Made by a program: the position numbers and the translations under genes
Shown: positions 10,065 through 38,390 of the stretch, piece after piece
Position numbering within the stretch: position 1 is the first letter of the stretch
Layout: the number at the start of each line of letters is the position of its first letter
From: Candidatus Zixiibacteriota bacterium
Lineage (GTDB): Bacteria; Electryoneota; B3-LCP
DNA: 42,670 bases
Direction of reading: 5' to 3'
Assembly (NCBI GenBank): GCA_003599535.1
Contig: QZKQ01000132.1
Span: 1-42,670 of the forward strand
The notes under the pieces: model-generated
Database searches by the model: none
Told to the model about the DNA's origin: nothing
The model's input: only the letters and a program-made list of their open reading frames with translations

Positions 10065-10499
10065 TTACCACGCCTTGTTGTCCACGATCTTGCGGATTTT
10101 CTCCTCGTTGCGCTTTTCCACCAGGAGCACCCGGTTGGCCTGGGCCTTGCGGATCTTGTCCAGCAGCAGATCCAGGCGGGCGGGCTTTTCCAGGACGTCC
10201 ATGGCGCCCAGCTTCATCGCCTCCACCCCCTGCTGCAGGGTGGCGCGGCCGGTCAGCAGGATAACCTGCAGGTCCGGGTTCAGGTCCAGGAGCCGCTTCA
10301 GGGTTTCGATGCCGTCCATTTCCGGCATGGCCAGGTCGAGGATAACGGCATCGTAAGCGTTCTGGCCGGCCAGATCCAGGGCCTTCAGGCCGTTGTCGGC
10401 GACGTCTACGGCGAGCCCGCGGTGCGCGATGCGCTCGGACAGGGCGCTGACGAAATCGGCCTCGTCGTCCACCAGCAGGATTTTATCCGTGCCGCTCAT
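10065..10499 (-). CDS. Single-domain response regulator (receiver)
   Basis: MSGTDKILLVDDEADF...VILDLAMPEMDG...LLTGRAT...LEKPARL; start at 10499 chosen over longer upstream frame. Confidence 0.85.
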   Translation of the reverse strand: MSGTDKILLVDDEADFVSALSERIAHRGLAVDVADNGLKALDLAGQNAYDAVILDLAMPEMDGIETLKRLLDLNPDLQVILLTGRATLQQGVEAMKLGAMDVLEKPARLDLLLDKIRKAQANRVLLVEKRNEEKIRKIVDNKAW

Positions 10500-11176
10500 G
10501 GCACCTCCTCGCTTATCTTTGGTATCGTCAGGACGATGGCGTACTTTCCTGCCCGGGCGGCCGTCCGAACGCGGCCTTCCAAATTCCACAGCGGCGGCCC
10601 CAGCCAGGCCCCCACCGCCGCCGGTAATTCCGCTTCCGGCAGGGCCGGCGCACCGGTGATGGTGATCTCCACTCCGGCGCCGCCTCCGGTCAACTGGACG
10701 GTGACGATCCCCTGGGCCGCCGTGCCCGCCAGCGCCGCGCTGACGGCCAGGAACACCGCCTGCTCCAGGATGAACGGCCGGGTGGTCAGGGTGACCGGCG
10801 CCCCGGCTGGTTCGAAAACCAGGCGCACCCGGCGCTGCGCGGCGAAGCGCTCCATCAGGGCCAGCAGGTTTTCCAGGAGATCGTTCATCTCCTGATTGCA
10901 GCAAGGCTCGTCGGCGCTGTGGGCGAAGCCGTTCAACCGCCGGACCAGCTCGGTGCCGCGCTGAACCTGCCGGGCGATCCGCTCGGTGACGTTCAGGATC
11001 TTGTCGCACCCGGCCGGGACGTCGGCCTCGGGGTCGGCGCACCAGTCTTCCAGCAGTCCCGCGGTCTGCTCGATGATGGAGAAAACATTGTTCAGTTCGT
11101 GGGTGGCGCCGGCGGTAACGGCGCCGAAGAACGCCAGATCGCTGTCGCGCCAGCGGGGGTCCGGAGACCAGGGCAT
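10496..11176 (-). CDS. Degenerate histidine kinase (DHp retained, ATPase domain degenerate)
   Basis: GAVTAGATHELNNVFSIIEQTAGLLEDW = H-box; no recognisable N-box Asn or DxGxG G1 box in C-terminal half. Confidence 0.7.
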   Translation of the reverse strand: MPWSPDPRWRDSDLAFFGAVTAGATHELNNVFSIIEQTAGLLEDWCADPEADVPAGCDKILNVTERIARQVQRGTELVRRLNGFAHSADEPCCNQEMNDLLENLLALMERFAAQRRVRLVFEPAGAPVTLTTRPFILEQAVFLAVSAALAGTAAQGIVTVQLTGGGAGVEITITGAPALPEAELPAAVGAWLGPPLWNLEGRVRTAARAGKYAIVLTIPKISEEVP

Positions 11177-11180
11177 GGGC

Positions 11181-11558
11181 TTATCCTTTCACGGCGGTCC
11201 GGATTTTATCCACCAGGACCTGAATGTTCACCGGTTTATACAGAACTTCGCGAATGTCCGGCGCCGCGCCGCCGGGTAGGCGGGCCAGCTCCTCTTCCAC
11301 CCCCCCCTGGCCGGTCATCAGCAGGGTCTTCACGCCGGGGTGGGCCTGCTGAATCCGGCGCTGCAGTTCCAGGCCGCTGATGCCCGGCAGCTTCAGATCC
11401 AGGACCACGGCGTCGTAGTGGCGCTGCTCCAGCCGCTGCAACGCCTCGGGCCCGCTGGTGCACCAGTCCGCCTGGAGGCCCCGCATCGCCAGCCGCTCCA
11501 CCAGGGTAGTGACCAGCTCTTCCTCATCGTCTATGACCAGTACCCGGATGTCGTCCAT
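11181..11558 (-). CDS. Single-domain response regulator (receiver)
   Basis: MDDIRVLVIDDEEEL...VVLDLKLPGISG...LMTGQGG...LYKPVNIQ. Confidence 0.85.
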   Translation of the reverse strand: MDDIRVLVIDDEEELVTTLVERLAMRGLQADWCTSGPEALQRLEQRHYDAVVLDLKLPGISGLELQRRIQQAHPGVKTLLMTGQGGVEEELARLPGGAAPDIREVLYKPVNIQVLVDKIRTAVKG

Positions 11559-11573
11559 GGCGGCACCTCGCGT

Positions 11574-13277
11574 CTAAATCCGCGCCTTGGGCAGAATGAC
11601 CGTAAAACACGTGCCTTCACCCTGGCGGCTCTCGACGGTGATGGAACCGCCCAGCTTGTCCACGATTTCTCGGGTGATGGACAATCCCAGGCCGGTTCCG
11701 AATTCTCCCTTGGTGGAAAAGAAGGGTTCGAAAATGTGCTTCAGGTCTTCCGGCGCAATGCCGGCGCCGCTGTCGCAGATGGTCACAGCGACGGAATAGT
11801 CATCCGGCTCTTGCAGGGCGAACTGAATCCAGCCGCCGTTCTGGGTGGCGGAAAGGGCGTTGTTAACGATGTTCAGGAACACCTGCTGCAACTGGCCGCG
11901 GTCGCTCTCGATGGTGGGGAAGTTGGGCGGCGCGTCGAATTTGATGGTGATGTTACGGTGCTCCGGCTCGCGTCCCAGGAACCCCACCACCTCCTTCAGC
12001 AGCATTTCCAGGTCGAGGGTCTCGATGTGGGCTTCCATGCGCCGGGCGAACCCCAGCAGGCGATGGGTCACGGCGCTGCAGCGTTCCACCGAGTGCAGCA
12101 TGGAGTTGACGAGGGCCAGGACCTTCTCCCGCTGGGTAAACTGGTCGGAGGAGTCCACGATGTCCTTCAGCAGCCCGGCCTTCTCATTGATGATGGAGAT
12201 GGGATTGTTGATCTCGTGAGCCACGCCGGCGGCCAGCCGCCCGATGGAGGCCATCTTGTTGGTATATTCCAGGTTGTGCAGGATACGGGCGCGGCGCGTA
12301 TCCGCCAGGCGGATGCGGTTGACCATGTAAGTGGAACTGCCCAGCACCACCAGCAGGATCAGTACGCTGCTCCCGGCCAGGAAGCGCAGGGGGTTGTTGC
12401 GCACCGTGCTCCAGATCTGCATCAGGTCCTGGGGGTGATGCACCAGGATCAGGACGAAAGGAGACCGCTCGATGGGCGCGTAACTCAGGAAGCCGGCCCG
12501 ATCCCCGCTGGCGAACTCCACCAGGGTGCGCATGCCCTGGGGGTGGTCCGGCAGGGGCAGGGCGGCCTTCTGCAAGAGAGCGCCGTGGTAGCGCGAATTG
12601 GTCTGCAGGATGCCCGAGCGGTTGATGAGGAACACGTCGCTGGAGGGCCCCAGGTCCAGGGAACGGATCTGCCGGTTCAGCAGCTCCATGTCAATGGTGG
12701 CGCGCAACACATAGAAATCGCCGTCGGGCAGAACGTGCTTGGCGGCGATGACGAAATGGGGGAAGTTGCGGTACCCCATGAACACGTCGCTGACATAGAC
12801 TTCGCGCAGGGCGACTTCGTGGAACCAGGGCTGGTTGTTGTAGTTGTTGCCTTCCAGGTTGTAGGGCCCCACATAGAACACCTGGTTGCCCTGGGAATCA
12901 ACCAGGCCCAGGTCCACGAATCCGCCGAAAATGCGGTTCAGGGTGGTGAAGGTGGAGGCCAGGCCGTCCTTGCTCCACAGGTCGTCGCGCGGCTTTTCGT
13001 GCACCACCAGGGTCAGGGCGTGCTTGTGCACGTCAATGACAGACTCCAGGCTCCGGCTGGTGTTGGCCAGCAACTGGGACACGGGGTAGCGCATCTCTTC
13101 CTGCAGGGCCTTCTGGTACTGCTGATTGCTAATGATGGTCATGATGATCAGGGGCGTCAGCGAGACCACCGCCATCAGCAGGACCGAGTAGCGCCACAGC
13201 CGGTGGTACCGGTGCCGGTCCTCCGGGCTGGGCTTCTCCTCCGCCGGGTGGGAATTTCGAAATTGTTCGCTTGCCAT
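11574..13277 (-). CDS. Membrane sensor histidine kinase with extracytoplasmic Cache-like sensor
   Basis: N-terminal TM, dCache-like region (YVGPYNLEGNNYNNQPWFHEV), second TM, GRLAAGVAHEINNPISIINEKAGLL H-box, NNALSATQNGG N-box, DSGAGIAPEDLKHIFEPFFSTK, GTGLGLSITREIVDKLGG. Confidence 0.92.
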   Translation of the reverse strand: MASEQFRNSHPAEEKPSPEDRHRYHRLWRYSVLLMAVVSLTPLIIMTIISNQQYQKALQEEMRYPVSQLLANTSRSLESVIDVHKHALTLVVHEKPRDDLWSKDGLASTFTTLNRIFGGFVDLGLVDSQGNQVFYVGPYNLEGNNYNNQPWFHEVALREVYVSDVFMGYRNFPHFVIAAKHVLPDGDFYVLRATIDMELLNRQIRSLDLGPSSDVFLINRSGILQTNSRYHGALLQKAALPLPDHPQGMRTLVEFASGDRAGFLSYAPIERSPFVLILVHHPQDLMQIWSTVRNNPLRFLAGSSVLILLVVLGSSTYMVNRIRLADTRRARILHNLEYTNKMASIGRLAAGVAHEINNPISIINEKAGLLKDIVDSSDQFTQREKVLALVNSMLHSVERCSAVTHRLLGFARRMEAHIETLDLEMLLKEVVGFLGREPEHRNITIKFDAPPNFPTIESDRGQLQQVFLNIVNNALSATQNGGWIQFALQEPDDYSVAVTICDSGAGIAPEDLKHIFEPFFSTKGEFGTGLGLSITREIVDKLGGSITVESRQGEGTCFTVILPKARI

Positions 13278-13298: not shown

Positions 13299-14531
13299 TC
13301 AGGATTTCGGCCGTGCCTGGGCGGCCTTCTTCTCGCTCACCTTGCGGTACGCTTCCCGCATGATGCGGGCCAGAGAGTCCACGTTCACCGGTTTCTGCAG
13401 GTAGGCGAAGGCGCCCAGTTCCCGGGCCAGGGCCTCTTCGCGCTGGGAACCGTGCCCGGTCAGGATGATCACCTCCACATCGGGATGCTCCTTCTTCACC
13501 CGGCGCAGGACTTCGATGCCGTCAATGCCCGGCATCTTCAGATCCAGGACCATGACCTCCGGCTCGTCGCTGGCCACCCGCATCAGGGCCTCTTCGCCGT
13601 CGTAGGCGATGGCCGGTTCCATGCGGCGGGTCTGCAACCGCTCGGACAGGGTCTGCACAAACTCCCGTTCGTCGTCCACCAGCAACACCTTGGTGGGCAC
13701 GGCCAGGTCCACGTCGCGGATGATGCCGGGCTGGGTGAAGCGGTTGCCCACCCGGGTTTCCACAGAGTGAACCCCGGGGACCGACTGGGCCAGGGCCTTC
13801 AGTTCCTGCTGCAAGGCCTCGACCCGCAGCACCGAGCGGTTGATCTCGATGCGGACCCGGCCGCCGGAGCAGGTGACGTCCAGCCCTTCTCCCTTCTCCA
13901 CCAGGGCCAGGCTGACGTGGGCGGCCAGGAGCGCGTCTTCCAGCGCCTGGAGCGAAGCGGGAGTGCAGCCCACCGCTTCCTTGGCCGCGTTCTCAGCGAT
14001 GATCTGCACCGCCTGGTCCACGGTGGTGCTGTGCATGGGGATGACGATGTCGTAGAGGCTCTCATCCCAAGGGCTGTCGCCGTGCAGCCGCCGGGTCCAC
14101 TCGGCGCAGGCCTCGTCGTCCTTGCGGAGGCGCTTGCGGGCCTCCTTGGCGGACAGGCCTTCCCTTCCGGCCTGCTCCAGGCGGTAGTCGGCGTTGGCGA
14201 TCAGGCAGACCCGCAGGACGTGGGCGATGGTCCGGTCCAGCAGCAGCCCCGCGGAGCCGCAGTACAGGAGATCGTTACTGCGGGCCATCTCCAGCAGGGA
14301 GATCTTCAGGCAGGCCAGGAGCCGATCCCGCTCCCGGGGGGGCATTCCGAACAAGGAGGAGGACCCGCCTTCCAGGGCGCGCAGGAACTTCTCGCGGGGC
14401 ACGTCCCAGCGGTCGGCGGCTTCGCGCAGCAGCCGTTCCTCCACCCGCTCATAGTTCAAAGTATCGCACACCGCCCCGGCGACTTCGGGGCCGTGGCAGA
14501 ACAGTCCGTAATGGAGAGCTATGACAGCCAT
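13299..14531 (-). CDS. Cytidylate-kinase-like (Cytidylate_kin2 type) + BON-like region + C-terminal receiver domain fusion
   Basis: N-term MAVIALHYGLFCHGPEVAGAVCDTLNYERVEERLLREAADRWDVPREK...; middle VTCSGGRVRIEINRSVLRVEALQQELKALAQSVPGVHSVETRVG BON-like; C-term VLLVDDERE...VLDLKMPGIDG...LTGHGS...LQKPVN receiver. Confidence 0.7.
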   Translation of the reverse strand: MAVIALHYGLFCHGPEVAGAVCDTLNYERVEERLLREAADRWDVPREKFLRALEGGSSSLFGMPPRERDRLLACLKISLLEMARSNDLLYCGSAGLLLDRTIAHVLRVCLIANADYRLEQAGREGLSAKEARKRLRKDDEACAEWTRRLHGDSPWDESLYDIVIPMHSTTVDQAVQIIAENAAKEAVGCTPASLQALEDALLAAHVSLALVEKGEGLDVTCSGGRVRIEINRSVLRVEALQQELKALAQSVPGVHSVETRVGNRFTQPGIIRDVDLAVPTKVLLVDDEREFVQTLSERLQTRRMEPAIAYDGEEALMRVASDEPEVMVLDLKMPGIDGIEVLRRVKKEHPDVEVIILTGHGSQREEALARELGAFAYLQKPVNVDSLARIMREAYRKVSEKKAAQARPKS

Positions 14532-14595
14532 ATCTGCACCTATGATGACATGCTTGTACGTATCCGGACCGCAACCGCCGGCCCGGGGGGACTCT

Positions 14596-16824
14596 CTACC
14601 CGGCGTTCCGGGCTTTCTTCCGGGGGGCGGCCGCTTCGGGAGTGACGGCGCGGGCCATGCATTCCAGCAGGGGGCAGGCGGTCTCCCGGGAATGCTCGTG
14701 GGTTTTGCGGTAGAGCGCGGCGACCGCCATGGCCACGTTCCCGTAGACGTGATCATCCCCGATCTTTTCCAGCAGGTAAGTGCGCCGCATGGTCTGCAGG
14801 ACCTTCTCGTTCACCCCGCTTAAAGAGACGTCGTGGCCGGCGTCCCGCAGGCGCGTGACGATCTTGGAGAGCGTCTCTTCGCCGGAGGCGTCCAGTTCGT
14901 TGATGGCGTTGCAGACGATGTGCACGTGCCGCAGTTCAGGCATGGCGTTCTGCAGTTCCAGGATCTTCTCCTCCAGGTAGGCCACGTTGGCGAAGATCAG
15001 GGAATTGTTGAAGCGCACCACGGCCAGGTGGCGGCACTTCTGCAGGCCGCGGCGGTCCGCATCGCGGAAGGTGCCGTCCTCGAATTTGGACAGCAGCGAC
15101 AGGTCCGGCTTGATGTTGCGCAGCAGGAAATGGACCAGGGACAGGCCCACGCCGATCATGATGCCCTTGTCCAGGTGGGGAGCGAAGGCCAGGGTCAGGA
15201 CGAAGGTGATCACCGCGATGATGCCATCGTAACGCTGGGTCTTCCAGGCGTGGATGAACCCGTGCACGTTGATCAGGCCGATTACCGCCATCATGATGAT
15301 GGCCGCCAGGGCCGCCTGGGGGATATAGTACAGCAGCGGCGTGAAGAACAGCAGCACCAGCAGGACCACGGCGCTGGCGAAGGCGCTGGAGAACCCGGTC
15401 ACGGCCCCGGTCTGGTAGTTGACCGCGGAACGGGAGAAGGAGCCGGATACCGGGTAGGCGAGGGTGAAGGAGCCGACGATGTTGGACAATCCCTGGCCGA
15501 TCAGTTCCCGGTTGGGATCAATCTGCTGCCCGGTGCGCGCCGCGATGGCCTTGGCGATGGAGATCGCCTCCAGGAAGCCCAGCAGCGAGATGATCATCAT
15601 CATGGGCAGCAGGTCGAGGATGACATTCAGGTGCAGCCCCGGCGGCTGAATGCTGGGCAACCCGCTGGGGACGAACCCCACGACCGCTCCGCCGCCGGTC
15701 AGGGTGAGCGTATCCTGGGGCACGGGGCGGCTGCCGACCTTCAGTCGCCAGCGGCCGGCCAGCTTCGGCGTCCCCGGCGCCAGGGCCTGGGGCTCGCAGA
15801 GGAGGGTATCCCCGGAGGCTTCACGGTAGGGCACGAACACCAGGCGGCGCAATTGTGCGCGTTCTTCGCCGGCCTGCTCCTTCAACCGGACAATTTCCAG
15901 GTCGCTGATGGTGATGTTGTACTTGGCGGTAACATCGTTGGGATCTTTCAGATCGTGGCACCCCTGGCACTTGGCCTGAGCCTTCAAGTGCTTGCCCAGT
16001 TCGATGCGGCGGGCCATGGCGCTGTCAATCTCGGTCAGGGCGTGGTTGTAGGCGATGATCTTTTCCTGGGTGGGGACGCACAGAGAGCTGAGCGGCGCCT
16101 TCATCTTGCGCTCCAGGCCCGCCCCCCAGGAGATCATGGTGGTGACCACCACGGCGATCAGGACGTTGGGGATCCGGGGATTCAGGTAGCGCAACCCGAA
16201 CATGATGGCGAAGGCCAGGAGGGCCAGTCCCAGGGTCGGCAGATGGGCCGAATGGGGTATCGCCGCCAGCACGTTGTACACGGTCTGGTAATGGTGCTCT
16301 CCCTTTTCCGCGGTGACCCCCAGCAGGTTGGCGAGCTGCGAGGTGGCGATGATGATGGCGGCGGCGTTGGTGAACCCGTTGACCACCGGGTGGGAGATGA
16401 AGTTGACCACCATGCCCAGGCGGAACAGACCCAGCAGCATCTGGAAAATGCCGACCAGCAGGGCCAGGAGAACGGCATAGGCGATGAAGGCTTCGCTGCC
16501 GGCGGTGGCCAGGGGCGCCAGGGCCGTGGCGGTCATCAGCGATACCACCGCCACGGGCCCGGTGGCCAACTGCCGGCTGGACCCGAACAGGGCGGCCACC
16601 AGGGGCGGCAGGAACGCGGCGTAGAGGCCGTAGTAGGCCGGCAGATCCGCCAACTGGGCGTAGGCCATGGACTGGGGGATCAGCACCATGGCCACAGTGA
16701 GGCCGGCGATCACGTCGGCGCGCAGGTGGGCCGGCGAATAGCCCTTCAGCCAGGCCAGGAAGGGGAGAAAGCGGTACACCACGCTTCCCGGGCCGGCAGG
16801 ATTTTTAGTCCCTTTTTCGCGCAT
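14596..16824 (-). CDS. SulP family anion transporter with C-terminal STAS domain and a CxxCH-containing insertion
   Basis: ADVIAGLTVAMVLIPQSMAYAQLADLPAYYGLYAAFLPPLVAALFGSSRQLATGPVAVVSLM; GFVPSGLPSIQPP; LLGFLEAISIAKAIAARTG; STAS ...VCNAINELDASGEETL; CQGCH at 15955-15969. Confidence 0.93.
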   Translation of the reverse strand: MREKGTKNPAGPGSVVYRFLPFLAWLKGYSPAHLRADVIAGLTVAMVLIPQSMAYAQLADLPAYYGLYAAFLPPLVAALFGSSRQLATGPVAVVSLMTATALAPLATAGSEAFIAYAVLLALLVGIFQMLLGLFRLGMVVNFISHPVVNGFTNAAAIIIATSQLANLLGVTAEKGEHHYQTVYNVLAAIPHSAHLPTLGLALLAFAIMFGLRYLNPRIPNVLIAVVVTTMISWGAGLERKMKAPLSSLCVPTQEKIIAYNHALTEIDSAMARRIELGKHLKAQAKCQGCHDLKDPNDVTAKYNITISDLEIVRLKEQAGEERAQLRRLVFVPYREASGDTLLCEPQALAPGTPKLAGRWRLKVGSRPVPQDTLTLTGGGAVVGFVPSGLPSIQPPGLHLNVILDLLPMMMIISLLGFLEAISIAKAIAARTGQQIDPNRELIGQGLSNIVGSFTLAYPVSGSFSRSAVNYQTGAVTGFSSAFASAVVLLVLLFFTPLLYYIPQAALAAIIMMAVIGLINVHGFIHAWKTQRYDGIIAVITFVLTLAFAPHLDKGIMIGVGLSLVHFLLRNIKPDLSLLSKFEDGTFRDADRRGLQKCRHLAVVRFNNSLIFANVAYLEEKILELQNAMPELRHVHIVCNAINELDASGEETLSKIVTRLRDAGHDVSLSGVNEKVLQTMRRTYLLEKIGDDHVYGNVAMAVAALYRKTHEHSRETACPLLECMARAVTPEAAAPRKKARNAG

Positions 16825-16848: not shown

Positions 16849-17337
16849 CTACTTCTCTTCGTCATCCAGGCGCCGCAGCTCCCGCAGGATGCCCAGGGCG
16901 CTGGAACCGGTAGCCAACTGCAGGATCCGGTCGGTCTTTTCCCGGTCGGCTTCGAACTTGTTCCTGAGCCGCGCCTGGTAGGCGTCTTTCAGGATATCCA
17001 GCAGTTGCTCCAGTTCGTAGGGCTTGGGCAGGTAGCCGAAGGCCCCCAGCTTGGTGCACTCCACGGCGGATTCCAGCGACCCGTGGCCGGTCAGGATGAT
17101 GACTTCGATGAACTTGTGCTCCTTCTTCAGGATTTCCAGCACCTGGCGCCCGTTCATGCCCGGCATCTTCAGGTCGAGCAGGGCCAGGTCGAACTTGCGG
17201 CTGCGGGCCAGCGCGACCGCTTCCTGGCCGTTGGTGGCCTTGGTCACCTCCAGGCCGCGAATTTCCAGCCTCTTGGCGATGGATTCCAGGTACTTGATCT
17301 CATCGTCCACGATGAGCAGTTTGATGGCTTCGGACAT
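16849..17337 (-). CDS. Response regulator (receiver domain with short C-terminal tail)
   Basis: MSEAIKLLIVDDEIKYLESIAKRLEIRGLEV...LALLDLKMPGMNG...LTGHGSLESAVE...LPKPYEL. Confidence 0.88.
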   Translation of the reverse strand: MSEAIKLLIVDDEIKYLESIAKRLEIRGLEVTKATNGQEAVALARSRKFDLALLDLKMPGMNGRQVLEILKKEHKFIEVIILTGHGSLESAVECTKLGAFGYLPKPYELEQLLDILKDAYQARLRNKFEADREKTDRILQLATGSSALGILRELRRLDDEEK

Positions 17338-17368
17338 GGTCGCCCTCCTTGATAGGTCTTACCCCGGC

Positions 17369-19441
17369 TTAGAAGCCGATCCAGCGCCAATAACCGAAGA
17401 ACAGCCAGCCCCACAGCACCGCCCAGGACAGCAGCAGCACGATGAAGCCGTGCTTCATGAAGTCGCCCAGGGTGACCAACTGTTTGCCGGTGACGGGATC
17501 CTTGGCCATGGCGTAGGCGATGGCGTTGTTGGGCGTGCCGATCAGCAGCATGTGGGCGAAGGACGAGGCGAAGGCCGAAGCGAAGCCCACCATCCAGGGG
17601 TGGGTGCCGGTCAGGGTGGCCATGGGCACGGTGATGGGCCCGATGGCCGAGACGGTCGCCCCGTCGCTCATGAACTGGGTGCAGGTCCCGGTGAACAGGC
17701 TGCAGGTGACGGCCAGACCGACGCCGCTGCGCAGAAATTCGGGCATCATGTTGAGGAACACATCGGCCATGTAGAGCGCCGCGCCGGTGGCGGCCAGCCC
17801 TTTGCCCAGGGCGCAGGCGCTGGCGTACAGCGCCACCACCTCCCACTGAATTTTGCTCACGTCCGCCCAGGTGACGATGCGGAAAACGTTCAGCAGGACA
17901 ATGGCCAGGATCACCGGGCCGCCCATGCCCAGGCTGTCGCTGGCGGTGATCCACAGGGTCACCAGCAGGATCATGATGGCGGCGGTGATGTACTCCATCC
18001 GGTTCATGGGACCGATCTTCTCCGCCGCCTGGTGCACGATGGCGGAGACATTCAGGGTCTTGACCTGCAGCTTGCGGCGGAAGGTCAGGTAGAAGTAGGC
18101 GGCGATGACCAGGCCCATCACCGGGACGAAGGGCAGGCCGTAGGTGACCCACTGGCTGAAGGAAGGGGCCACCCCGTAGTCGCCCAGGATGCCTACCATG
18201 ACGGCGTTGCGCCCGCCCGCCGCGGGCGACCCCGGCCCGCCGCAGTTGGCCGCGAAGCAGAGCGAGAGTACCAGCATGACGGCCAGGGACCGGTCCTCCT
18301 CCACCCCGGCGTTCCGAATGGAGGAGGCGTACACAATCATGAACAACGGCATGATGAAGGCCACCAGCGCATGCTCGGACAGGAAGGCGCAGGCGATGCC
18401 GATCATGGGCAGAAACAGGAACAGGAGCTTGGGCAGGGAGGTGGAAGGCCCCAGGAGCAGCAGCCCGATGCGCCGGTTCAGGCCGGTCTTGCCGATGGCC
18501 AGCGCCACCACCAGCACCCCGAAGACGAAGATGACGGCATCCTTGGCGTAGGCCTGGGCGATGTCGTCGGGGCGCAGGACGCCCAGGAAATACATGAACA
18601 CCCCCACCAGCAGCGCGGTGATGCCGATGGGCAACGCTCCGGAGGCCCAGAACAGCGCCCCCACGGCCAGAATCCCCAGCATCACCTTGGCCCGGAAAGC
18701 AGCCTCCTCCGGCTTCAGGCCGCGCATCTCCACTTTCTGGCCGTACTCGTCCTTGACGGTGCGTTCCAGCTTGTAGGAGCGGCTGTAATACTGGGTGATG
18801 GTCTCCCCGGGCTTCATCTTGTTGTAGCTGGCGTACCCCATGATGGGGTCGGTGGGGTCGTCCACCATTTTCCCCGTGGCCGAATGCTCCACCAGGGGGC
18901 GCTTGCCCTGGGAGAGGATGTTCATCATCCGGTTGGGGGTGGGCATGAAGGAGATGAGGGTGAAGATCAGTATGCCCAAGGCCACCACCCCGGGGCGGTA
19001 GTTGTGGACGCCCACCAGCCACTTCAGCAGCGAACCCTTCTCAATGTGGGGGATCTCGTGCTTTTCCATGGCCCGCACCTTATGCTTGCGGGCGGCGTCA
19101 ATGGTGGTCACCAGCCGGTCGAAATCGTAGGGCTTTTCCAGGTAGGTGTAGGCGTCCAGCTTGCCCGTCTCCACCGCCGAATCCATGCTGCCGTACCCAG
19201 TCAGCATGATGACCTGCAGCTCCGGCTTGAACTGCTTGAGTTCGCGCAGCACCTGTTCACCGGTCATGCCCGGCATCTGGCGGTCCAGGATGACCACGTC
19301 AATGTCCGGTTCGCGGCGGATGGTTTTGATGGCGTCGTGACCGTTGTTCAGGGCGATGTTCTCGTAACCCCTCAACAGGAGCCGTTCCGCGAGGGACTGT
19401 CGGAATTTGTCCTCGTCGTCAATCAGCAGTACCTTGGCCAT
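17369..19441 (-). CDS. Receiver domain fused to SLC13/DASS-type anion transporter
   Basis: N-term MAKVLLIDDEDKFRQSLAERLLLRGYEN...VVILDRQMPGMTG...LTGYGSMDSAVE...YLEKPYDF; C-terminal ~545 aa polytopic DASS transporter with NCGGPGSPAAGGRNAVMVGIL and LLIGTPNNAIAYAMAKD; one uninterrupted ORF. Confidence 0.9.
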   Translation of the reverse strand: MAKVLLIDDEDKFRQSLAERLLLRGYENIALNNGHDAIKTIRREPDIDVVILDRQMPGMTGEQVLRELKQFKPELQVIMLTGYGSMDSAVETGKLDAYTYLEKPYDFDRLVTTIDAARKHKVRAMEKHEIPHIEKGSLLKWLVGVHNYRPGVVALGILIFTLISFMPTPNRMMNILSQGKRPLVEHSATGKMVDDPTDPIMGYASYNKMKPGETITQYYSRSYKLERTVKDEYGQKVEMRGLKPEEAAFRAKVMLGILAVGALFWASGALPIGITALLVGVFMYFLGVLRPDDIAQAYAKDAVIFVFGVLVVALAIGKTGLNRRIGLLLLGPSTSLPKLLFLFLPMIGIACAFLSEHALVAFIMPLFMIVYASSIRNAGVEEDRSLAVMLVLSLCFAANCGGPGSPAAGGRNAVMVGILGDYGVAPSFSQWVTYGLPFVPVMGLVIAAYFYLTFRRKLQVKTLNVSAIVHQAAEKIGPMNRMEYITAAIMILLVTLWITASDSLGMGGPVILAIVLLNVFRIVTWADVSKIQWEVVALYASACALGKGLAATGAALYMADVFLNMMPEFLRSGVGLAVTCSLFTGTCTQFMSDGATVSAIGPITVPMATLTGTHPWMVGFASAFASSFAHMLLIGTPNNAIAYAMAKDPVTGKQLVTLGDFMKHGFIVLLLSWAVLWGWLFFGYWRWIGF

Positions 19442-19475
19442 GGCGATCCCCGTTTAGATCCCCGTTTTGGTTGTA

Positions 19476-20030
19476 TTAACCTGATTCGGCGCAGCTTTTA
19501 ATGCGATTGGCAACTTCCCGGTACAGATCGGACAAGCGCAGAATCCCCACTACCTCGTTGCGGCGCGTGACCAGCAGGGAGAGGGTCTGCCAGACGATGA
19601 TTTTGTGCAAGGCTTCGCCCAGGGTGGCGTTCTCGTCCACGCTTTCGGTCACCGGGCGCATGACTTCCCGAACGCGGGTGGTCCGGGCCCGGCGGCAGAC
19701 GTCCTCCAGGCTATCCTTCCACAGGTTCATGTTCTCCATCATGGACTGGATGAATTCGGTGCTGAGCCCCACCTGGGACAGCACTCCCAGGTCGCCCACG
19801 GAGCTGTACTTGGGTTCCAGGGCCTTCAGGAACGCCAGGTGCCCCAGCTTGCCCACGATCCGGTTCTGGGCGTCCACCACCAGCACGGCGCGGTGCGGTT
19901 CCAGGCCGGGCGGCAGTTTGCTCTGGGACTTCTCCAGGGCGAGGACGGCATCGAGCAGAGTGTCCTCCTGGTGGACGACGGCATATTCGTCCAGAGGCAG
20001 CATCAGCTCTTTGACCCCTCTCTGTTTCAT
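19476..20030 (-). CDS. CBS-domain pair protein, paralogue of 5469-5999
   Basis: MKQRGVKELMLPLDEYAVVHQEDTLLDAVLALEKS...AVLVVDAQNRIVGKLGHLAFLKAL...VREVMRPVTESVDENATLGEALHKIIVWQTLSLLVTRRNEVVGILRLSDLYREV. Confidence 0.82.
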   Translation of the reverse strand: MKQRGVKELMLPLDEYAVVHQEDTLLDAVLALEKSQSKLPPGLEPHRAVLVVDAQNRIVGKLGHLAFLKALEPKYSSVGDLGVLSQVGLSTEFIQSMMENMNLWKDSLEDVCRRARTTRVREVMRPVTESVDENATLGEALHKIIVWQTLSLLVTRRNEVVGILRLSDLYREVANRIKSCAESG

Positions 20031-20126
20031 GGGATCCTCACGAAAGAGACGGTATATGGGATCGGATCGGCAGCCCGATCCGGACTGCAAGATTTCGCAT
20101 AGCACGGCCGCCGGCGGCCGCCGGGG

Positions 20127-21809
20127 TCAACTGACCGGGAGTCTCACGGTGAAGACGCTGCCCTTGCCCGGAATGCTTTCCACCAGGATGTCGCCTCCCA
20201 GGCTCTTGACGATGCCGTAGCTGACGGACAGCCCCAGCCCGGTCCCCTTGCCCACCTCCTTAGTGGTATAGAAGGGGAGGAAGATCCGGCCCATCATCTC
20301 CTGGGTAATGCCCTTGCCGGTGTCGGCGATGGCCACCGACAGCCAGCCGCTGGCGCAGGAGGTGGCGATGGTGATGGCGCCGGGCGGCTCGATGGCGTCC
20401 GCGGCGTTGTTCAGGATATTCAGTAACACCTGGGTGAGCTGATTGGCGTCGGTGACGATGCTGGGCAGTTCGCAGCTGTAATTCTTCACGATCTGAATAT
20501 TGGAGACCGCCATCTCCCGGATCAGCAGACCATCCACCACGTCGTCCAGCAGCTGGTTGACGTCGTGCGGCTTCAGGTGAATGGCGTCTTTGCGCACGAA
20601 GCTCAGCAGCTTGCGGGTGATATCCCGGCAGCGGTACACCGCCTCCCGGATGTTGTCCAGGTGCGGGATCAGGTCGTCGAAGGTGGTGTGCATCTTGAAC
20701 TCGGGGTTCATCAGGTCCCGGATCAAGCCCACCTCTTCAGAGATGATCGCCAGAGGGTTGTTGATTTCATGAGCGATACCCGCCGACAGCTCCCCCACCG
20801 AGGCCAGCTTGGCGGCATGCTCAAACTGCGCCTTGGCGGTCTCCCGCTCGATCTGCATCTGCACCAGCTTTTTGGAGCGGAAGACGATGATGGACAGCAC
20901 CACCAGGATGGGCGCCAGGGAGAAAGCCATGACGCCGAAGAGGTTGCCCAGCAGGGGGACGCCGTTTTCCCCCTCGATGTCCCGGACGACGACTCCCCAG
21001 CCGGCGGTGCGCATCCAGGCGTAGGCGTAATCCACCTTTTGGTGCCCCCGCCGCACCCTCTGGTCGCCGATGCGGGGGGAAACCGGCGGCACCAGCGGCG
21101 AAGCCTGCATGGGCGTGCCGATTTCCGGGGTGGCCAGTTGCAGCGTGCCGCTGCGGTTGACGATGGAGAAGGCGGTGTTGCGGGATTCCCCCAGGGAATG
21201 GAGGTAATCGGTGATGGACTTGGGATCCAGGGTGGCCCGCAGGACGAAGTACTGCCCGCCGATGATCCGCCGCACCGCCAGGGTGAAATGGGGCTGCTGC
21301 CGCAGGCCCAGGTACACGTCGGTGATGATGAAGTTTTCCTCGCCGCTCCTCAGGCTGATGAACCAGGCCTCGTGGCTGTAATTACGGTTCTCCAGGTAGG
21401 GAAGCGGCCCGGCGTAGGCGCGCTGAATGCCGGTGGAATCGAAGAACCCTACGTCCACGAAGGAGGGGCTATTCTTCTGCAGGCGGTTCAGCAGCGCTTC
21501 CATCAATCCGGAGGTCGGCGGCAGGGGCAGCTTGGGGTCGTCAATCAGGTTGGCCAGGTTGACCACCCGCTCGCTTAAGAAGAGATCCATCATGTTGGCC
21601 TGGTGCTCGGCCACGGATCTCAGGTGCAGCCGCCGGCCTTCCCGGGACACCGCGCGGTACTGCAGGGTGAAATAGACCGTGAGCAGAATCAGCGGCGCCA
21701 GATAGGTCAGGGCCAGGCGCAGGAAATTCTTCCCCAGCAGTTCGCGGTAATAGCGTTCGCTCGGCGTGTCCGCGCCGGGCGGCGGAACCGATGATTCCTT
21801 CTCGGGCAT
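20127..21809 (-). CDS. Membrane sensor histidine kinase with Cache-like sensor, paralogue of 11574-13277
   Basis: TM - Cache-like (AYAGPLPYLENRNYSHEAWFISL) - TM - GELSAGIAHEINNPLAIISEEVGLI - NNAADAIEPPG - DTGKGITQEMMGRIFLPFYTTK - GTGLGLSVSYGIVKSLGG. Confidence 0.92.
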   Translation of the reverse strand: MPEKESSVPPPGADTPSERYYRELLGKNFLRLALTYLAPLILLTVYFTLQYRAVSREGRRLHLRSVAEHQANMMDLFLSERVVNLANLIDDPKLPLPPTSGLMEALLNRLQKNSPSFVDVGFFDSTGIQRAYAGPLPYLENRNYSHEAWFISLRSGEENFIITDVYLGLRQQPHFTLAVRRIIGGQYFVLRATLDPKSITDYLHSLGESRNTAFSIVNRSGTLQLATPEIGTPMQASPLVPPVSPRIGDQRVRRGHQKVDYAYAWMRTAGWGVVVRDIEGENGVPLLGNLFGVMAFSLAPILVVLSIIVFRSKKLVQMQIERETAKAQFEHAAKLASVGELSAGIAHEINNPLAIISEEVGLIRDLMNPEFKMHTTFDDLIPHLDNIREAVYRCRDITRKLLSFVRKDAIHLKPHDVNQLLDDVVDGLLIREMAVSNIQIVKNYSCELPSIVTDANQLTQVLLNILNNAADAIEPPGAITIATSCASGWLSVAIADTGKGITQEMMGRIFLPFYTTKEVGKGTGLGLSVSYGIVKSLGGDILVESIPGKGSVFTVRLPVS

Positions 21810-21846
21810 AGCCTCGCCGTGTTGACCTTGCCGGACCGGAAAAGCG

Positions 21847-23373
21847 TCAGGGAGACGACAGCACCGGCAATCCCATCAGGGGCCAGAGGAATAAGACGAA
21901 CAGGCTCCACACCGCCAGCAGGATGAGGCTGGCGGGCACGCCGATCTTCAGGAATTCGGCGGGAGTGAACTGGCGGCTCTCATAGGCGATGGCGTTGGGC
22001 GCGGCACCCACCAGCAGCAGGAAGGGCATGCCGGCCGTCACCAGGGTGGTGAAGAAGACGATCTCCGGCGTCACCCCCAGGTAGGGGGCCATGAGCAGCC
22101 CGACCGGCAGCACGAAGGCGATGACGGCCACGTTCACCACCAAGTTGGTCAGCACCAGGATCAACCCGCCCAGGCAGAGGATGAAGACGAACCAGGGGGC
22201 GTGCTGGAACAGGGGCAGGCTCCGGACCGCCAGCCACTGGGCCGCTCCCGTCTGCCACAGGCACAGGCCCAGGCTCATGGTGCCCCCGAAGAGCAGGAGG
22301 ATGTTCCAGGGGATATCCTCCAGGTCTTGCAGGCTCAGCACCTTGAACACGAACAGCAACAGTGTGGTGGTCAGCAGCAGGCCGGTGCGGTCGAGCGGTT
22401 GCAGCCAGGGCACGGCCGAGCGCAGAATCAGGAGGGCCACGACTCCCAGGGCCAGGATCAGGACCAGTTTCTCGGACCGCTTCACGGGGCCCAGGCGGGA
22501 GGCGAGATCCCGGGCCCGGGTCTTCAGGCTGGGGATCACCTTCCGCTCCGGCTTAAAGAAGACCAGGACCAGCAGCCACAGCAGCACCAGCATGCACCAG
22601 CCCACGGGCAGCAGATACCAGGAAAATTCGGCGAAGCTGATTTCCCGCCCCGCGATGCCGTGGAAAAAGCCCGCCGCGATGATCCCGCGGGCCGCGCTCA
22701 GGTAGGTGACGATGCTGCTCCCCCCGGCGGCGAAGGCCATGCCGATGAACAACCCCTTGCCGAAGCGGGTGCTCTGGCCGTCCTCCTGGTACAGGGAATG
22801 GATGGCCATGAGCAGGGGGAAGATGGTCGCCGCGACGGCGGTGTGGGCCATGAACAGGGTCAGGACAGCGATCATGGCGAAGCTGCCCAGGTAGATCATG
22901 CTGGTGCGGTCCCCCGCCAGGGCCAGGATATTGTACGCCACCCGCTGGGTCAGGCCGGTCTTGCTGAAGCTCTTGCCCAGGATCAGGGTGGCGAAAATAA
23001 ACCAGATGGCCGGGTCGAAGAAACTGCCCAGGGCCGTCTGCGGGGAACGAATGGCGAACAAGACCTGGATCAGCCCCACCGCCACGCCGGTCACTCCGAT
23101 GGGCACCACCTCGAATACCCACCAGACCCCCGCCAGGAGGAAGAGCGCCAGAGTGGCCTTGCCTTCACGCGTCAGGGCGAAGTGCCGGCCCTCGGGGTCC
23201 ACCGCGTCCGCCCAGGGGGGGGCAAGGTAGACCGCCAGGAACAGCGCCAGGCCCAGCAGCAGGAGCGCCGCCCGGCGGAGCTCACCCGGGCTGAAGCGCC
23301 GGGAGCGCAGTCTCCGGGGGCGTTCCAGGATGGGGGTGGGCTGTTCGCCGCTGGCGGGCAGAGCAGAGGGCAT
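21847..23373 (-). CDS. SLC13/DASS family anion transporter (no receiver domain)
   Basis: ALFLLAGVWWVFEVVPIGVTGVAVGLIQVLF; FDPAIWFIFATLILGKSFSKTGLTQRVAYNIL; LLVGAAPNAIAYESRQFTPAEFLKIG; start MPSALP chosen over longer upstream frame. Confidence 0.88.
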   Translation of the reverse strand: MPSALPASGEQPTPILERPRRLRSRRFSPGELRRAALLLLGLALFLAVYLAPPWADAVDPEGRHFALTREGKATLALFLLAGVWWVFEVVPIGVTGVAVGLIQVLFAIRSPQTALGSFFDPAIWFIFATLILGKSFSKTGLTQRVAYNILALAGDRTSMIYLGSFAMIAVLTLFMAHTAVAATIFPLLMAIHSLYQEDGQSTRFGKGLFIGMAFAAGGSSIVTYLSAARGIIAAGFFHGIAGREISFAEFSWYLLPVGWCMLVLLWLLVLVFFKPERKVIPSLKTRARDLASRLGPVKRSEKLVLILALGVVALLILRSAVPWLQPLDRTGLLLTTTLLLFVFKVLSLQDLEDIPWNILLLFGGTMSLGLCLWQTGAAQWLAVRSLPLFQHAPWFVFILCLGGLILVLTNLVVNVAVIAFVLPVGLLMAPYLGVTPEIVFFTTLVTAGMPFLLLVGAAPNAIAYESRQFTPAEFLKIGVPASLILLAVWSLFVLFLWPLMGLPVLSSP

Positions 23374-23773
23374 GGTTGTATCGTCTGTAACAAGCTTTGT
23401 GAAATATTTAGCATAGCGAAGGCCAATTCGCGGCCGCTTCACTTCAAATGCAGGAGAATTCAGGAACAGTTCGAGTGCGGCTGGGAGAACGATAGAGGGG
23501 GAAGGGAAGGTCGTGTTCGGGCGCAGGAGAGAGAACCCCCTATCCCGCAAGCGGGCGCACCATGGCAGGTCCGCATGGCCACGAACTTCGGATCCGTCTT
23601 CGTTGCGTGCATGTCCTCCACGTAGGCTCTGGGGCCGCGATTGCCAATATTTTAACAATCACCCGACAAGGGCCTGGTCATCATGCCGTAAACGCTGAGC
23701 AAACGCCGTAATCGTTGGTTGGTGTGGACGCTGTTGGGGAAACAGGGAATTCTATCCGTTACAGGAATGTTCT

Positions 23774-24121: not shown

Positions 24122-25327
24122 ATGCACCTATCCGTTCTCGGGTTCAACCACCGCAGCGCGCCCCTGGAAACGCGCGAACCGTTCCAGTTGGGCCGCGCCG
24201 ACCTGGAAGCCGCCACCCGCCTGTACCGGGACCTGTCCCAGTGCGCCGAAGCCGCCGTGGTGGCCACCTGCCACCGGGTGGAATTCTACCGCGTATCGCC
24301 CCGCAAGGAAGGCCTGCTGCAGGACGCTGTCGCCTTTTACCGCCAGTGGGGAGCGCCGCAGCCGGAACGGCTGAAGGAGGTCACCTACCGCTTCCACGGC
24401 ACATCCGCGGCGCGCCACCTGTTCCGGGTGGCCTCGGGGCTGGATTCCCTGGTGCTGGGGGAAGACCAGGTGCTGCACCAGTTGAAGGAAGCCTACAGCG
24501 CCGCCTGCGCCGCCTCCGGGCCGGGCAAGGTGCTGCACAAGATCTTTCACCTCTCCTTCCAGGCCGGCAAGCGGGTGCGCAGCGAAACCGGTTTGGGAGC
24601 GGGCCCGCGAGGCCTGCCCGGCGCGGCCATGGACCTGCTGCGCCGCCGCTACGAGGGACAGGCGCCGAAGTCCGCCCTGGTCTGCGGGGTCAACGAAATC
24701 ACCGAGATCATTCTGGACGACCTGGCCCGCTGGGGCGTGCCCGCGGTACTGGTCAACCGCACCCTGTCGCGGGCGGAAAAGCTGGCCGGAGCGTTCGGGG
24801 TCCCGGCGCTGCCCCTGGACCGCCTGGGCGAAGCCCTGGGCCGGGCGGAAGTGGTGTTCTCGGCCACCGCGGCGCCGGGGTACGTCATTACGGAAGACCA
24901 CCTGGCCGGGGTCCCGGAGGGGGCCGGCCCCCGCTGCTTGGTGGACCTGGCCGTGCCCCGGGATATTGACCCGGACCTGGGCCGGCGGCCGGGGCTCGTC
25001 CTGTACGATCTTCAGGATCTGAAGAAGTACCTGGAACACACCGAGAACCAGCGCGCCCAGGAGATCCCCGCGGCGGAAACCATCGTCGAGGAGCTGGTGC
25101 GGCAGTATTCCACCTGGTGCGCCCAGGAACGCATGCAGGGGAAGATCCTGGACCTGCACCGGGATCTGAACCTGGCCCGCCGCCAGGAATTGGAACATTT
25201 CAAAGACGGCTTTCGGCCCAGCGAGCACCGCGCCCTGGAAGCCTTCTCCCACGCGCTGGTGCGCAATTTCATGCGGCTGGCCCCCCGGTTGCTGGAAGAC
25301 CCGCCGGAAGAAGCCGCGGGGGGCTGA
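24122..25327 (+). CDS. hemA: Glutamyl-tRNA reductase-like protein (divergent)
   Basis: MHLSVLGFNHRSAPLETRE; ATCHRVEFYRV; SGLDSLVLGEDQVLHQLKEAY; AGKRVRSETGLG; CLVDLAVPRDIDPDLG; YDLQDLKKYLE. Confidence 0.85.
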   Translation: MHLSVLGFNHRSAPLETREPFQLGRADLEAATRLYRDLSQCAEAAVVATCHRVEFYRVSPRKEGLLQDAVAFYRQWGAPQPERLKEVTYRFHGTSAARHLFRVASGLDSLVLGEDQVLHQLKEAYSAACAASGPGKVLHKIFHLSFQAGKRVRSETGLGAGPRGLPGAAMDLLRRRYEGQAPKSALVCGVNEITEIILDDLARWGVPAVLVNRTLSRAEKLAGAFGVPALPLDRLGEALGRAEVVFSATAAPGYVITEDHLAGVPEGAGPRCLVDLAVPRDIDPDLGRRPGLVLYDLQDLKKYLEHTENQRAQEIPAAETIVEELVRQYSTWCAQERMQGKILDLHRDLNLARRQELEHFKDGFRPSEHRALEAFSHALVRNFMRLAPRLLEDPPEEAAGG

Positions 25328-25354
25328 GGAAAGCCCCGCAGGGATACAGATGCC

Positions 25355-25388
25355 ACGGTCGGGCTACCAGCCCGACCGTTTTCATTTC
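25355..25388 (+). terminator. Rho-independent terminator after hemA-like gene
   Basis: 11-bp perfect stem ACGGTCGGGCT-ACC-AGCCCGACCGT followed by TTTCATTTC. Confidence 0.82.
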
Positions 25389-25410
25389 AGCCCGGGGTGG
25401 AGGCCCCGGA

Positions 25411-26199
25411 TCAGCCGCGCAAGGCGGAAGGCTTGACCTTGATGGTCTTGTCGCCGAACAGGGCGAACAGCAGCCAGCGGAAGCCGAAGCGCAGCAGCTC
25501 CTCGTCGTCGGCCATGATCCGTTCCTCCTGGCCGGGTTCCAGATCGAAGCGCTGCAGGAACGTGCTTTCCCGGATGAAGCGGCGGAAGGTGTCCAGGTCG
25601 TAGCAGGCCATGTGGAACAGTTCCATGCGGCCAGCGTCGAGCTGCTTCTGGGCCCGGAAATAGCTGTGCAGGGTCAGGTCCTTGAACAGGCGGCCGAATT
25701 CGTCATAGGGCGTCACCCCCTGGTCTTCCCGCCACCGGGCGACGGTCCATTCGTCCTGCTCTTCGAAGCCGCGGCAGACCTCCTCGTGCAGCAGGAAGAA
25801 GAACTCCTCGTTGCCTCCTTCCCCTTCCCGGGGCGAGGCCAGCCCCAAAGGATAGTAGCGGCAGGCCCAGGGGCGGTCCTCGTACACCGAACAGCCCTTC
25901 TCCGTCACGAAGTGGCAGGTTTTGGCCTCGTTGTCCTGCATCTTCAGCAAGATGACCGGGTACTGCTGGTGCTCTTCAATGGGGACCAGGGTGTATTTCT
26001 GCAGGAATTCGTCGGAAGTCAATCCCAGGCGGTTCTTCAGCCGCAGGATGTCGTAGGGGGTCAGGAAAATGTTGACGTCGGCGCAGCAGGCGTTGAAACA
26101 GGGGACCCCGGGCCGGCAGGCGAAGCGGAAGGTATCGTTTTCCGCCAGCCGGGGGTATTCTGCCAGAATGGTCTGCTTGAACCGCTCCAGGGCATCCAT
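25411..26199 (-). CDS. YkgJ-like cysteine-cluster (zinc/iron-chelating) protein
   Basis: CRPGVPCFNACCADVNIFLTPYDILRLKNRLGL...CHFVTEKGCSVYEDRPWACRYYPLG. Confidence 0.85.
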   Translation of the reverse strand: MDALERFKQTILAEYPRLAENDTFRFACRPGVPCFNACCADVNIFLTPYDILRLKNRLGLTSDEFLQKYTLVPIEEHQQYPVILLKMQDNEAKTCHFVTEKGCSVYEDRPWACRYYPLGLASPREGEGGNEEFFFLLHEEVCRGFEEQDEWTVARWREDQGVTPYDEFGRLFKDLTLHSYFRAQKQLDAGRMELFHMACYDLDTFRRFIRESTFLQRFDLEPGQEERIMADDEELLRFGFRWLLFALFGDKTIKVKPSALRG

Positions 26200-26741: not shown

Positions 26742-28634
26742 TTACAGGGCCTGGTTGATGTACATGACCGGGCGCTTGATCATTTCCCAATTGTTGCTCT
26801 TGGGATCCCACTTGCAGTTGGCGAAGGCCAGCCAGTCTTCCTTCATCTTGGGAGTGTCGGAGCGGAAGTAGTAGCCGGGCCAACGGGTCTCTTCGCGGAA
26901 GAGGATGGTGCGGACGTGGGCTTCGGCCTGCCACATGCGCTGGATGTTCTCCCAGCAGCGCATCAGTTCGTGCAGGTCTTCGGCCGCCAGCTTCAGGCTG
27001 TCCTCCTTCAGCATGGAGAGCAGGACCAGGCCCTTCTCCAGCATGGCCTTAGAGGTCTTGAACTGGGCAGTCACGCCGCCGGCGTACTCGTCCATGATCT
27101 TCTGCAGGCGGAACATGAACATCTTGGGCCGGATGTATTCCGGATGGATGTTCGGATCGCTGCTGTACTTGCTGTTCTGGGCATAGATGTCCAGCGGCTT
27201 CAGGAGCATGGCCTTCAGCTCTTCGACCTTGGCGGCATCCACTTTGGGAGCTTCGGGATGGTCCACGATGTAGCGGATGGCTTCCTTGGCGGCGATGCGG
27301 CCTTCAGCGTGCGAGCCGGAGCTGAACTTGTGGCTCGAGGCGCCCGAGGCGTCGCCGGCGCAGAAGATCCCCGGAGTCGTGGCCATGTGCCCGTAACCCC
27401 AGAAGTACACCGGCTTGGTTTCCGAAGTCTGCAGGTCTTCCGGACCGCTGACCCACGCGCCGGAGGCGCCGGAGTGCGAACCGATGAAGTACGGCTCGGC
27501 GGCGGCGATTTCCGACTTGGCTTCTTCGGGAGCCACATTGGAGGCGGCCCACAGGATGGCCTGGGAGATGGTCATATCCAGGAAGTCTTCCCAGGCTTCC
27601 GATTCCAGCTCCTTCATCTTGGCCTTGTAGCCCTTGGGGTCGTCCTTGTACTGGTTGGCGATGTTGGCGATGGCCTCTTCGGTACGCATGAAGATGGGGC
27701 CCTTGCCTTCCATCACGTCCAGCATGCCCAGCCAGTTACGCAGGTTGGCGGGCACCGGCTTGACCTTGCCGTAGGGAACCCAGTTCTCCAGCTCGGGCTT
27801 GCGGGTTTCCATGTAGTTCTCATCCATGCCGTTGGTGGCACGGGACTTGAACAGCAGGAACCAGGCGCCCACGGGGCCGTAGGCGTCCTTGAAGCGGACG
27901 GGGATGAAGCGCACTTCCTGGCAGGTCATCTCGGCGCCGGCCTTCAGGGTGAAGTAGGCAGACGAGCCGGAGTTCCAGGGGGGATACCAGGCGCGGCCCA
28001 GGCCTTCGCCCGAGGAGCGCGGCTTGAACACGTGCACCGCGCCGCCCATGGCCACCAGCACGGCCTTGGCCTTGAACACGTAGAACACGTTCTCGCGGAC
28101 CGAGAAGCCCACCGCGCCGACGCACTTGTCGCCGTCCATCAGCGGATCGGTGATAAACACGCGCTCGTAGATGTTTTCCGGACCCAGGGCGTTCTTGGCG
28201 GCTTCGGCCACCACGACCTTGTAGGATTCGCCGTTGATCATGAGCTGCCAGCGGCCTTCGTGCACGTAGGCGCCCTTCTCATCCTTCCAAATCGGCAGGC
28301 CCCACTTCTCGAACAGGTGCACCGACGAGTCCACGTGGCGGGCGATGTTGGCCACCAGGTCTTCGCGGGTGATGCCCATCAGGTCGTTGCGGACGTAGTC
28401 CACGTAGTCCTTCAGGGTATTCTGGCCGTCCTTCAGGCCGACGTACTGGTTGATGGCGGACAGACCCATGGCCACGGCGCCGGAGCGATCCATGGCGGCC
28501 TTGTCCACCAAGGTAACTTTCAGGCCGTTCTGCTTGGCCCAGTAAGCCGCTTCGACCGCCGCACCACAGGCAGCCATGCCGCCACCCAGGATCAACAGGT
28601 CGGTCGAAACTTCGCGGGTTTCGAAATTAGCCAC
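26742..28634 (-). CDS. aprA: Adenylylsulfate (APS) reductase alpha subunit
   Basis: GTG start; FETREVSTDLLILGGGMAACGAAVEAAYWAK; SGAVAMGLSAINQYVG; FCAGDASGASSHKFSSGSHAEGRIAAKEA; RETRWPGYYFRSDTPKMKEDWLAFANCKWDP. Confidence 0.98.
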   Translation of the reverse strand: MANFETREVSTDLLILGGGMAACGAAVEAAYWAKQNGLKVTLVDKAAMDRSGAVAMGLSAINQYVGLKDGQNTLKDYVDYVRNDLMGITREDLVANIARHVDSSVHLFEKWGLPIWKDEKGAYVHEGRWQLMINGESYKVVVAEAAKNALGPENIYERVFITDPLMDGDKCVGAVGFSVRENVFYVFKAKAVLVAMGGAVHVFKPRSSGEGLGRAWYPPWNSGSSAYFTLKAGAEMTCQEVRFIPVRFKDAYGPVGAWFLLFKSRATNGMDENYMETRKPELENWVPYGKVKPVPANLRNWLGMLDVMEGKGPIFMRTEEAIANIANQYKDDPKGYKAKMKELESEAWEDFLDMTISQAILWAASNVAPEEAKSEIAAAEPYFIGSHSGASGAWVSGPEDLQTSETKPVYFWGYGHMATTPGIFCAGDASGASSHKFSSGSHAEGRIAAKEAIRYIVDHPEAPKVDAAKVEELKAMLLKPLDIYAQNSKYSSDPNIHPEYIRPKMFMFRLQKIMDEYAGGVTAQFKTSKAMLEKGLVLLSMLKEDSLKLAAEDLHELMRCWENIQRMWQAEAHVRTILFREETRWPGYYFRSDTPKMKEDWLAFANCKWDPKSNNWEMIKRPVMYINQAL

Positions 28635-28661
28635 TTGTACCTCCTTGTATGGCTTCGTTAA

Positions 28662-29105
28662 TTACTTTTTCAGGCTGGGAATGGTGGGCATGCCGGCGGA
28701 AGCCGGTTCGGTGAACAGCATCTGGTTCTTCAGGTTGGCGTCGCCGGGGCCGAACCCGCCGTCCGGGACGGCCTTGCCTTCTTCCGTGGTGCGGATGGGG
28801 AACTTGAACCGCTTCAAGGTCCCGTTGCGGAACTTCACCGTCCACATGATGGAGTCGGTGCCGCGCATGGGAGTCACAGCCGCTCCCAGAGGCACGAAGT
28901 CGGCGTAACCGCGCACTTCGACGGCCTGGGTGGGGCAGATCTTCACGCAGTTGTAGCACTCCCAGCACATCTCCGGTTCACGGTTGTACGCCTTCATCTG
29001 GACTTTGTCCAGGACCATCAGGTCGTTGGGGCAAATATGCTGGCATGCGGTCTTGTCCAGCGCCTTGCACCCATCGCACTTTTCGGTAATCACGAAACTG
29101 GGCAT
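28662..29105 (-). CDS. aprB: APS reductase beta subunit
   Basis: MPSFVITEKCDGCKALDKTACQHICPNDLMVLD...CWECYNCVKICPTQAVEVRGYADFVPLGA. Confidence 0.98.
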   Translation of the reverse strand: MPSFVITEKCDGCKALDKTACQHICPNDLMVLDKVQMKAYNREPEMCWECYNCVKICPTQAVEVRGYADFVPLGAAVTPMRGTDSIMWTVKFRNGTLKRFKFPIRTTEEGKAVPDGGFGPGDANLKNQMLFTEPASAGMPTIPSLKK

Positions 29106-29197
29106 TGGGTCCTCCTAAAATGGGTTTTGGGTGTTGATTATGGTAGTCGTTTTTCCGCTTTCACAGGGGAAAGAACGCGACACCCGGTGCGGCGGGC

Positions 29198-30427: not shown

Positions 30428-30485
30428 GTTTGCTTACCTCACTTGATTGGGTGGTGATTGGCTGGCGTTCTTATTCGATTTGTGC

Positions 30486-32723: not shown

Positions 32724-32727
32724 GACG

Positions 32728-33990: not shown

Positions 33991-34048
33991 AATCGCTTCG
34001 ACTCCCTATCTATTCGGTATCACGACGTATCTGGCCGGCAGCCCCGAC

Positions 34049-37039: not shown

Positions 37040-37041
37040 GA

Positions 37042-38383: not shown

Positions 38384-38390
38384 GAGGTCC

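Follow-up and report, generated by a model that had tools for sequence, protein, structure and literature searches.

The stretch of DNA analysed here (the window) comprises 42,670 nucleotides of contig QZKQ01000132.1 from a Candidatus Zixiibacteriota bacterium. On the minus strand, which carries all of the window features described below, the open reading frame at 14596–16824 encodes P0001, a full-length SulP protein (742 aa). Pfam and NCBIfam matches, together with alignment to SLC26 structures, identify this protein as a SulP-family anion transporter with the 14-TM SLC26 fold and a C-terminal STAS domain. The Sulfate_transp match (PF00916, 7e-107) is split into two stretches around an insert, and the STAS match (PF01740, 6e-13) covers residues 600–698. 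TIGR00815 (sulP) was the best NCBIfam model, with 466 bits against a cut-off of 380, while the score for the BicA model fell far under the BicA cut-off. In TM8, E419 (15568–15570) aligns with Glu-320 of SLC26A11, which has a proton-coupling role in that protein (PMC13408680).

The SulP gene belongs to a run of genes with gaps of ≈4–46 bp that includes two DASS transporters, a CBS protein, kinases and receivers, all assigned by domain matches. Upstream in the run (16849–23658, gaps of 21–37 bp) are a receiver, a receiver–DASS fusion, the CBS protein, a dCache histidine kinase and the second DASS transporter. The fusion (17369–19441, 690 aa) joins a receiver domain to a DASS (Na_sulph_symp) transporter; it is 72% identical in G005, the source of the nearest SulP relative, and may be controlled directly by phosphorylation. 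On the other side of the SulP gene, after a gap of ≈46 bp, a cytidylate-kinase-like domain (PF13189) is fused to a response-regulator receiver (13299–14552, start approximate), and the run continues through 10496–13277 with a dCache histidine kinase (11574–13277), a receiver (11181–11558) and a 226-aa protein (10496–11176). Still further upstream, on the same strand, there is a compact sulfate-reduction island (26742–42450) consisting of aprA, aprB, sat, two HdrA-like (qmoA/qmoB-type) genes, qmoC, a CoA-disulfide-reductase-like gene, and dsrP, dsrO, dsrJ, dsrK and dsrM. Two ORFs of 374 and 262 aa (24128–26199), located between aprA and the DASS transporter, had no NCBIfam match, and the 374-aa ORF had no Pfam match either. 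Because the neighbourhood contains sat, aprBA, qmo and dsrMKJOP, sulfate is the presumed substrate of the window SulP, and gene content and sequence together suggest that the protein is most likely a sulfate:proton importer serving dissimilatory sulfate reduction.

The homology of P0001 to solved SLC26/SulP structures ends at about residue 237 and restarts at residue 378, a distance spanned by only four residues in prestin. These breaks define an insert of ≈139 aa (residues 239–377, 15694–16110). A preliminary description of the window had reported an insertion of ≈140 residues with a CQGCH motif at 15695–16110 and had placed it in the TM7–TM8 connection; the structure alignments bear out both points. 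The same description had taken this loop to be extracytoplasmic, which agrees with the 7+7 inverted-repeat fold, in which the TM7–TM8 connection is outside the cell, and with the structure of human SLC26A11, in which the extended TM7–8 loop is N-glycosylated (PMC13408680). From the fold and this glycosylation, we infer that the insert and its CQGCH motif face the periplasm in P0001 as well.

The insert is not peculiar to the window. Full-length relatives that carry it in the host’s phylum are 57–73% identical to the window SulP, and a search with an insert profile yielded matches in 16 of 39 genomes from the same phylum, in two of three genomes of another phylum, in 57 of 395 genomes sampled from a Desulfobacterota-like phylum (that of a Syntrophaceae MAG; the ≈4 weakest matches are partial and may be false), and in two further families elsewhere. 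A scan of genome contigs with the window insert sequence itself returned one relative, and a search of viral contigs returned none. The window insert matches the family profile, in which the common columns are N, R, W, GGG and GLP, with the Trp, GGG and GLP near the end of the insert. The breadth of this distribution indicates that the insert is an old, widespread domain shared by a whole subfamily of SulP proteins. One divergent insert-bearing group (L112–L115) lacks CxxCH, and genome G382 encodes both this and the usual type.

No Pfam family, and no known cytochrome c family among them, matched the window insert; for the insert of a 12-member clade described below, NapC/NirT gave a sub-threshold match (E = 0.028). 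AlphaFold2 was run on the insert alone with two sequences, and one of five models was confident (mean pLDDT of 77); a full-length model of P0001, also from two sequences, had a pLDDT of 37 and was set aside. In the insert model, a loop connects a helix of ≈36 residues to an antiparallel one of ≈32 residues, and there are a few strands besides; the insert is thus predicted to be a long hairpin of two helices resting on a small β part. Helix 1 of the hairpin corresponds to residues ≈253–285 (15970–16068) and helix 2 to residues ≈295–326 (15847–15942), with the CQGCH region in a poorly defined loop at the tip. Foldseek with this model returned nothing at E < 0.05, the top likeness being to AcrA-type docking hairpins (E = 0.06, non-significant), and a comparison of the insert profile with the PDB returned generic coiled coils only.

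The CQGCH motif (residues 286–290, 15955–15969) is a candidate site for covalent attachment of haem c. Among the long ORFs of the window, only P0001 and the tri-haem DsrJ contain CxxCH, and a CxxCH occurred in 443 of 200,000 shuffles of P0001 (≈0.2%). Of the 84 insert-bearing proteins compared, 14 have the motif, always at the hairpin tip: the window SulP, its nearest relative in G005 (CQACH at the same tip, 73% identity overall) and the 12-member clade, all 12 members of which have PC[SGL]RCH and, after it, a longer loop. The occurrence of CxxCH at this position in 13 other proteins from two clades excludes an error of sequencing or assembly as the source of the window motif. The other 70 proteins lack both cysteines at the tip, and the whole insert of these Cys-less relatives contains 0.33 Cys on average. 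The preliminary description had named a lack of CxxCH conservation in insert-bearing orthologues as evidence against its reading; across the family the motif is indeed not conserved, but inside both clades it is (2/2 and 12/12). A family-wide haem protein is rejected on the same count. Since the insert persists in so many relatives that have no such cysteines, the domain requires no haem for its basic role; as judged from these sequences, the insert is not a haem module by descent, and CxxCH is not a family trait.

A phylogenetic tree was calculated from 544 core columns, excluding the insert, in a single, midpoint-rooted FastTree run; two insert-bearing loci from other phyla, L154 and L160, the latter without CxxCH, were left out. 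In this core-only tree, the window SulP pairs with its G005 relative (support 1.0), nested deep within the Cys-less proteins, and the 12-member clade branches separately, far from the pair (0.991). Fitch parsimony requires two gains of CxxCH, while an ancestral motif would cost seven losses, and a single ancestral gain was rejected accordingly. The window’s own CxxCH clade consists of two sequences, and many of the compared genomes are metagenome-assembled.

Sequence identity was then compared between the hairpin and the rest of the insert in 1552 protein pairs of similar core divergence, which share members and are not independent. Over these pairs, identity averaged 26% in the hairpin, normally a fast-evolving part, and 38% in the remainder of the insert. 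The window pair, in which the corresponding values are 75% and 40%, has a strongly conserved hairpin and the largest hairpin-minus-rest contrast of all pairs, a top place that is a rank and not a probability. A chance CxxCH in the window was rejected, given the two clades, the shared site and the raised hairpin conservation. The window pair also shares H279 (15988–15990), present in both proteins and in none of the 70 CxxCH-less relatives, while helix 2 of the 12-member clade has a His in 12/12 and a Met in 11/12 members, the Met being found in none of the same 70 relatives. H279 in the window pair, as a putative distal ligand, and the helix-2 His or Met in the 12-member clade are candidate second axial ligands of a haem; these candidates are not the same in the two clades.

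These observations bear on the possibility that the insert is a docking hairpin, a scaffold for transport or signalling proteins, and that CxxCH is a minor, lineage-specific change that binds no cofactor. An insert without the cysteines is indeed the family rule, the closest structural likeness, non-significant as it was, is to docking hairpins, and in several phyla the SulP gene accompanies a set of two-component genes: outside the host’s phylum, Cys-less SulP genes are again found beside a cytidylate-kinase-like receiver, a dCache kinase and receivers. However, a minor change would hardly be expected to arise twice at the same tip, to be invariant in all 12 members of one clade and to be accompanied by raised hairpin conservation in the window pair, and we consider the cofactor-free scaffold improbable.

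The host appears equipped to attach haem. The preliminary description had invoked Ccm for this step; cytochrome c assembly genes are indeed present, but they are of the CcsA/ResB type (system II). The host encodes a CcsA-like PF01578 protein with a WWD motif (WAEQAWGQFWSWDPKE) and ResB, in addition to the tri-haem DsrJ, and every tested genome of the 12-member clade has ResB as well. As is established, a CxxCH in a periplasmic protein is an acceptable substrate for cytochrome c synthases. It is probable, from the sequence evidence, that a c-type haem is covalently attached at the CxxCH of the hairpin tip. Alternatively, CxxCH could bind a metal ion or form a redox-active disulfide, making the tip a switch based on thiols or metal. 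A CxxC pair is capable of disulfide formation, a further Cys (C343) is conserved in the window pair, and the 12-member clade is found among genes for nickel-enzyme maturation. On the other hand, all 14 proteins of the two clades have an invariant His immediately following CxxC, a residue that is required for haem c but not for a disulfide. Together with the acceptance of such motifs by the synthases, this makes a thiol or metal switch unlikely.

In nine of the 12 loci of the 12-member clade, the SulP gene is inside a [NiFe]-hydrogenase operon (including L166, L167, L170, L171, L172, L173, L174 and L127); seven of these operons are complete on both sides and two are one-sided at contig ends. 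The gene order is small subunit, large subunit, cytochrome b, SulP, HypF, HypC, HypD, HypE, protease, HypA and HypB, and the small subunit bears a twin-arginine (TAT-type) signal. This context is absent from the basal two members and one more. In several of these loci, a gene shortly before that of the small subunit codes for an unassigned exported protein of ≈340 aa, which is β-rich and may be an outer-membrane barrel, and carbonic anhydrase genes (PF00194, PF20393) are found close to two of the operons (L167:16835–17578 and L173:11350–12619). In the same class as the 12-member clade, Cys-less SulP genes (L177, L178) sit in the window-type two-component run. With a hydrogenase operon in the 12-member clade and the two-component run in the window, CxxCH goes with two quite different contexts. 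The [NiFe] group 1c cluster of Dissulfurimicrobium hydrothermale has the same order of small subunit, large subunit and cytochrome b, then HypC-D-E-protease-A-B, but no SulP was reported there (PMC8780430). The recurrence of the motif at one site and the hydrogenase context both argue that CxxCH is functional.

The hydrogenase operon and the nearby carbonic anhydrase genes could also mean that the haem protein functions mostly as an electron carrier anchored in the membrane, and that its transporter part moves another anion, such as bicarbonate or sulfite, or has lost transport. Against this, the gene in the window shares its sulfate-reduction island with sat, apr, qmo, dsr and two DASS transporters. 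Moreover, the sulP model is preferred over BicA, and the transporter core and STAS domain are well conserved between the window SulP and G005. We therefore regard such a carrier as quite improbable, and prefer a haem-bearing sulfate importer.

Several known systems resemble parts of this arrangement. Marietou et al. (2018) described group Ci SulP proteins of sulfate-reducing microorganisms, ≈710 aa long and with an extra insertion relative to Rv1739c (PMC5840216). By description, these are like the window SulP, but their insertion is ≈90 aa with an extra TM helix and no mention of haem or cytochrome, whereas the window insert is ≈139 aa, soluble, in the TM7–8 loop and contains CxxCH. Human lysosomal SLC26A11 shares with the window SulP the SLC26 fold, sulfate as substrate, an extended extracytoplasmic TM7–8 loop and a TM8 Glu at the proton-coupling position; its loop, however, is a short glycosylated β-hairpin for which no haem was reported (PMC13408680). 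PuuD, an integral membrane cytochrome c urate oxidase, likewise joins a polytopic membrane protein to a c-type haem domain, but it is an enzyme rather than a transporter, and its cytochrome c domain can be recognised as such (PMC4562309). Neither a haem-bearing SulP nor a hydrogenase operon containing a SulP was found in the openly accessible literature, although this does not prove that none has been described.

We give about an even chance to the overall explanation, a periplasmic c-type haem on a proton-coupled sulfate importer that serves as a docking site for electron carriers or as a redox-gating site. In the window lineage, the hairpin tip would have gained CxxCH, and the cytochrome c assembly system of the host would attach one haem to it. 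This haem would project from the tip into the periplasm and, we infer, exchange electrons with periplasmic carriers, plausibly fed in the 12-member clade by the hydrogenase of the same operon. The redox state of the haem, or the docking of a carrier, would then tune sulfate uptake to electron supply. Redox gating of SulP transport as such, the coupling of anion import to periplasmic redox state that the preliminary description had proposed, is possible but doubtful; the interpretation given there is supported in part. Equally tentative is the most far-reaching form of the proposal, namely that a covalent periplasmic haem, which receives electrons from the respiratory chain (through a hydrogenase of the same operon in one lineage), gates a secondary anion importer, and that this arrangement was invented twice at the tip of the same loop domain.

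Which transporters carry sulfate in sulfate reducers is unsettled (PMC5840216), as is the way in which sulfate uptake, which costs an ion gradient, is matched to electron supply. A haem on the importer, if confirmed, would represent a new type of control that can be tested on a single protein, and the recurrent gain of CxxCH, together with the hydrogenase operon, provides a natural experiment with the Cys-less relatives as controls. Some SulP importers may thus be wired to electron carriers, which, if true, would constitute a direct electrical link between the supply of electron donor and the uptake of electron acceptor.
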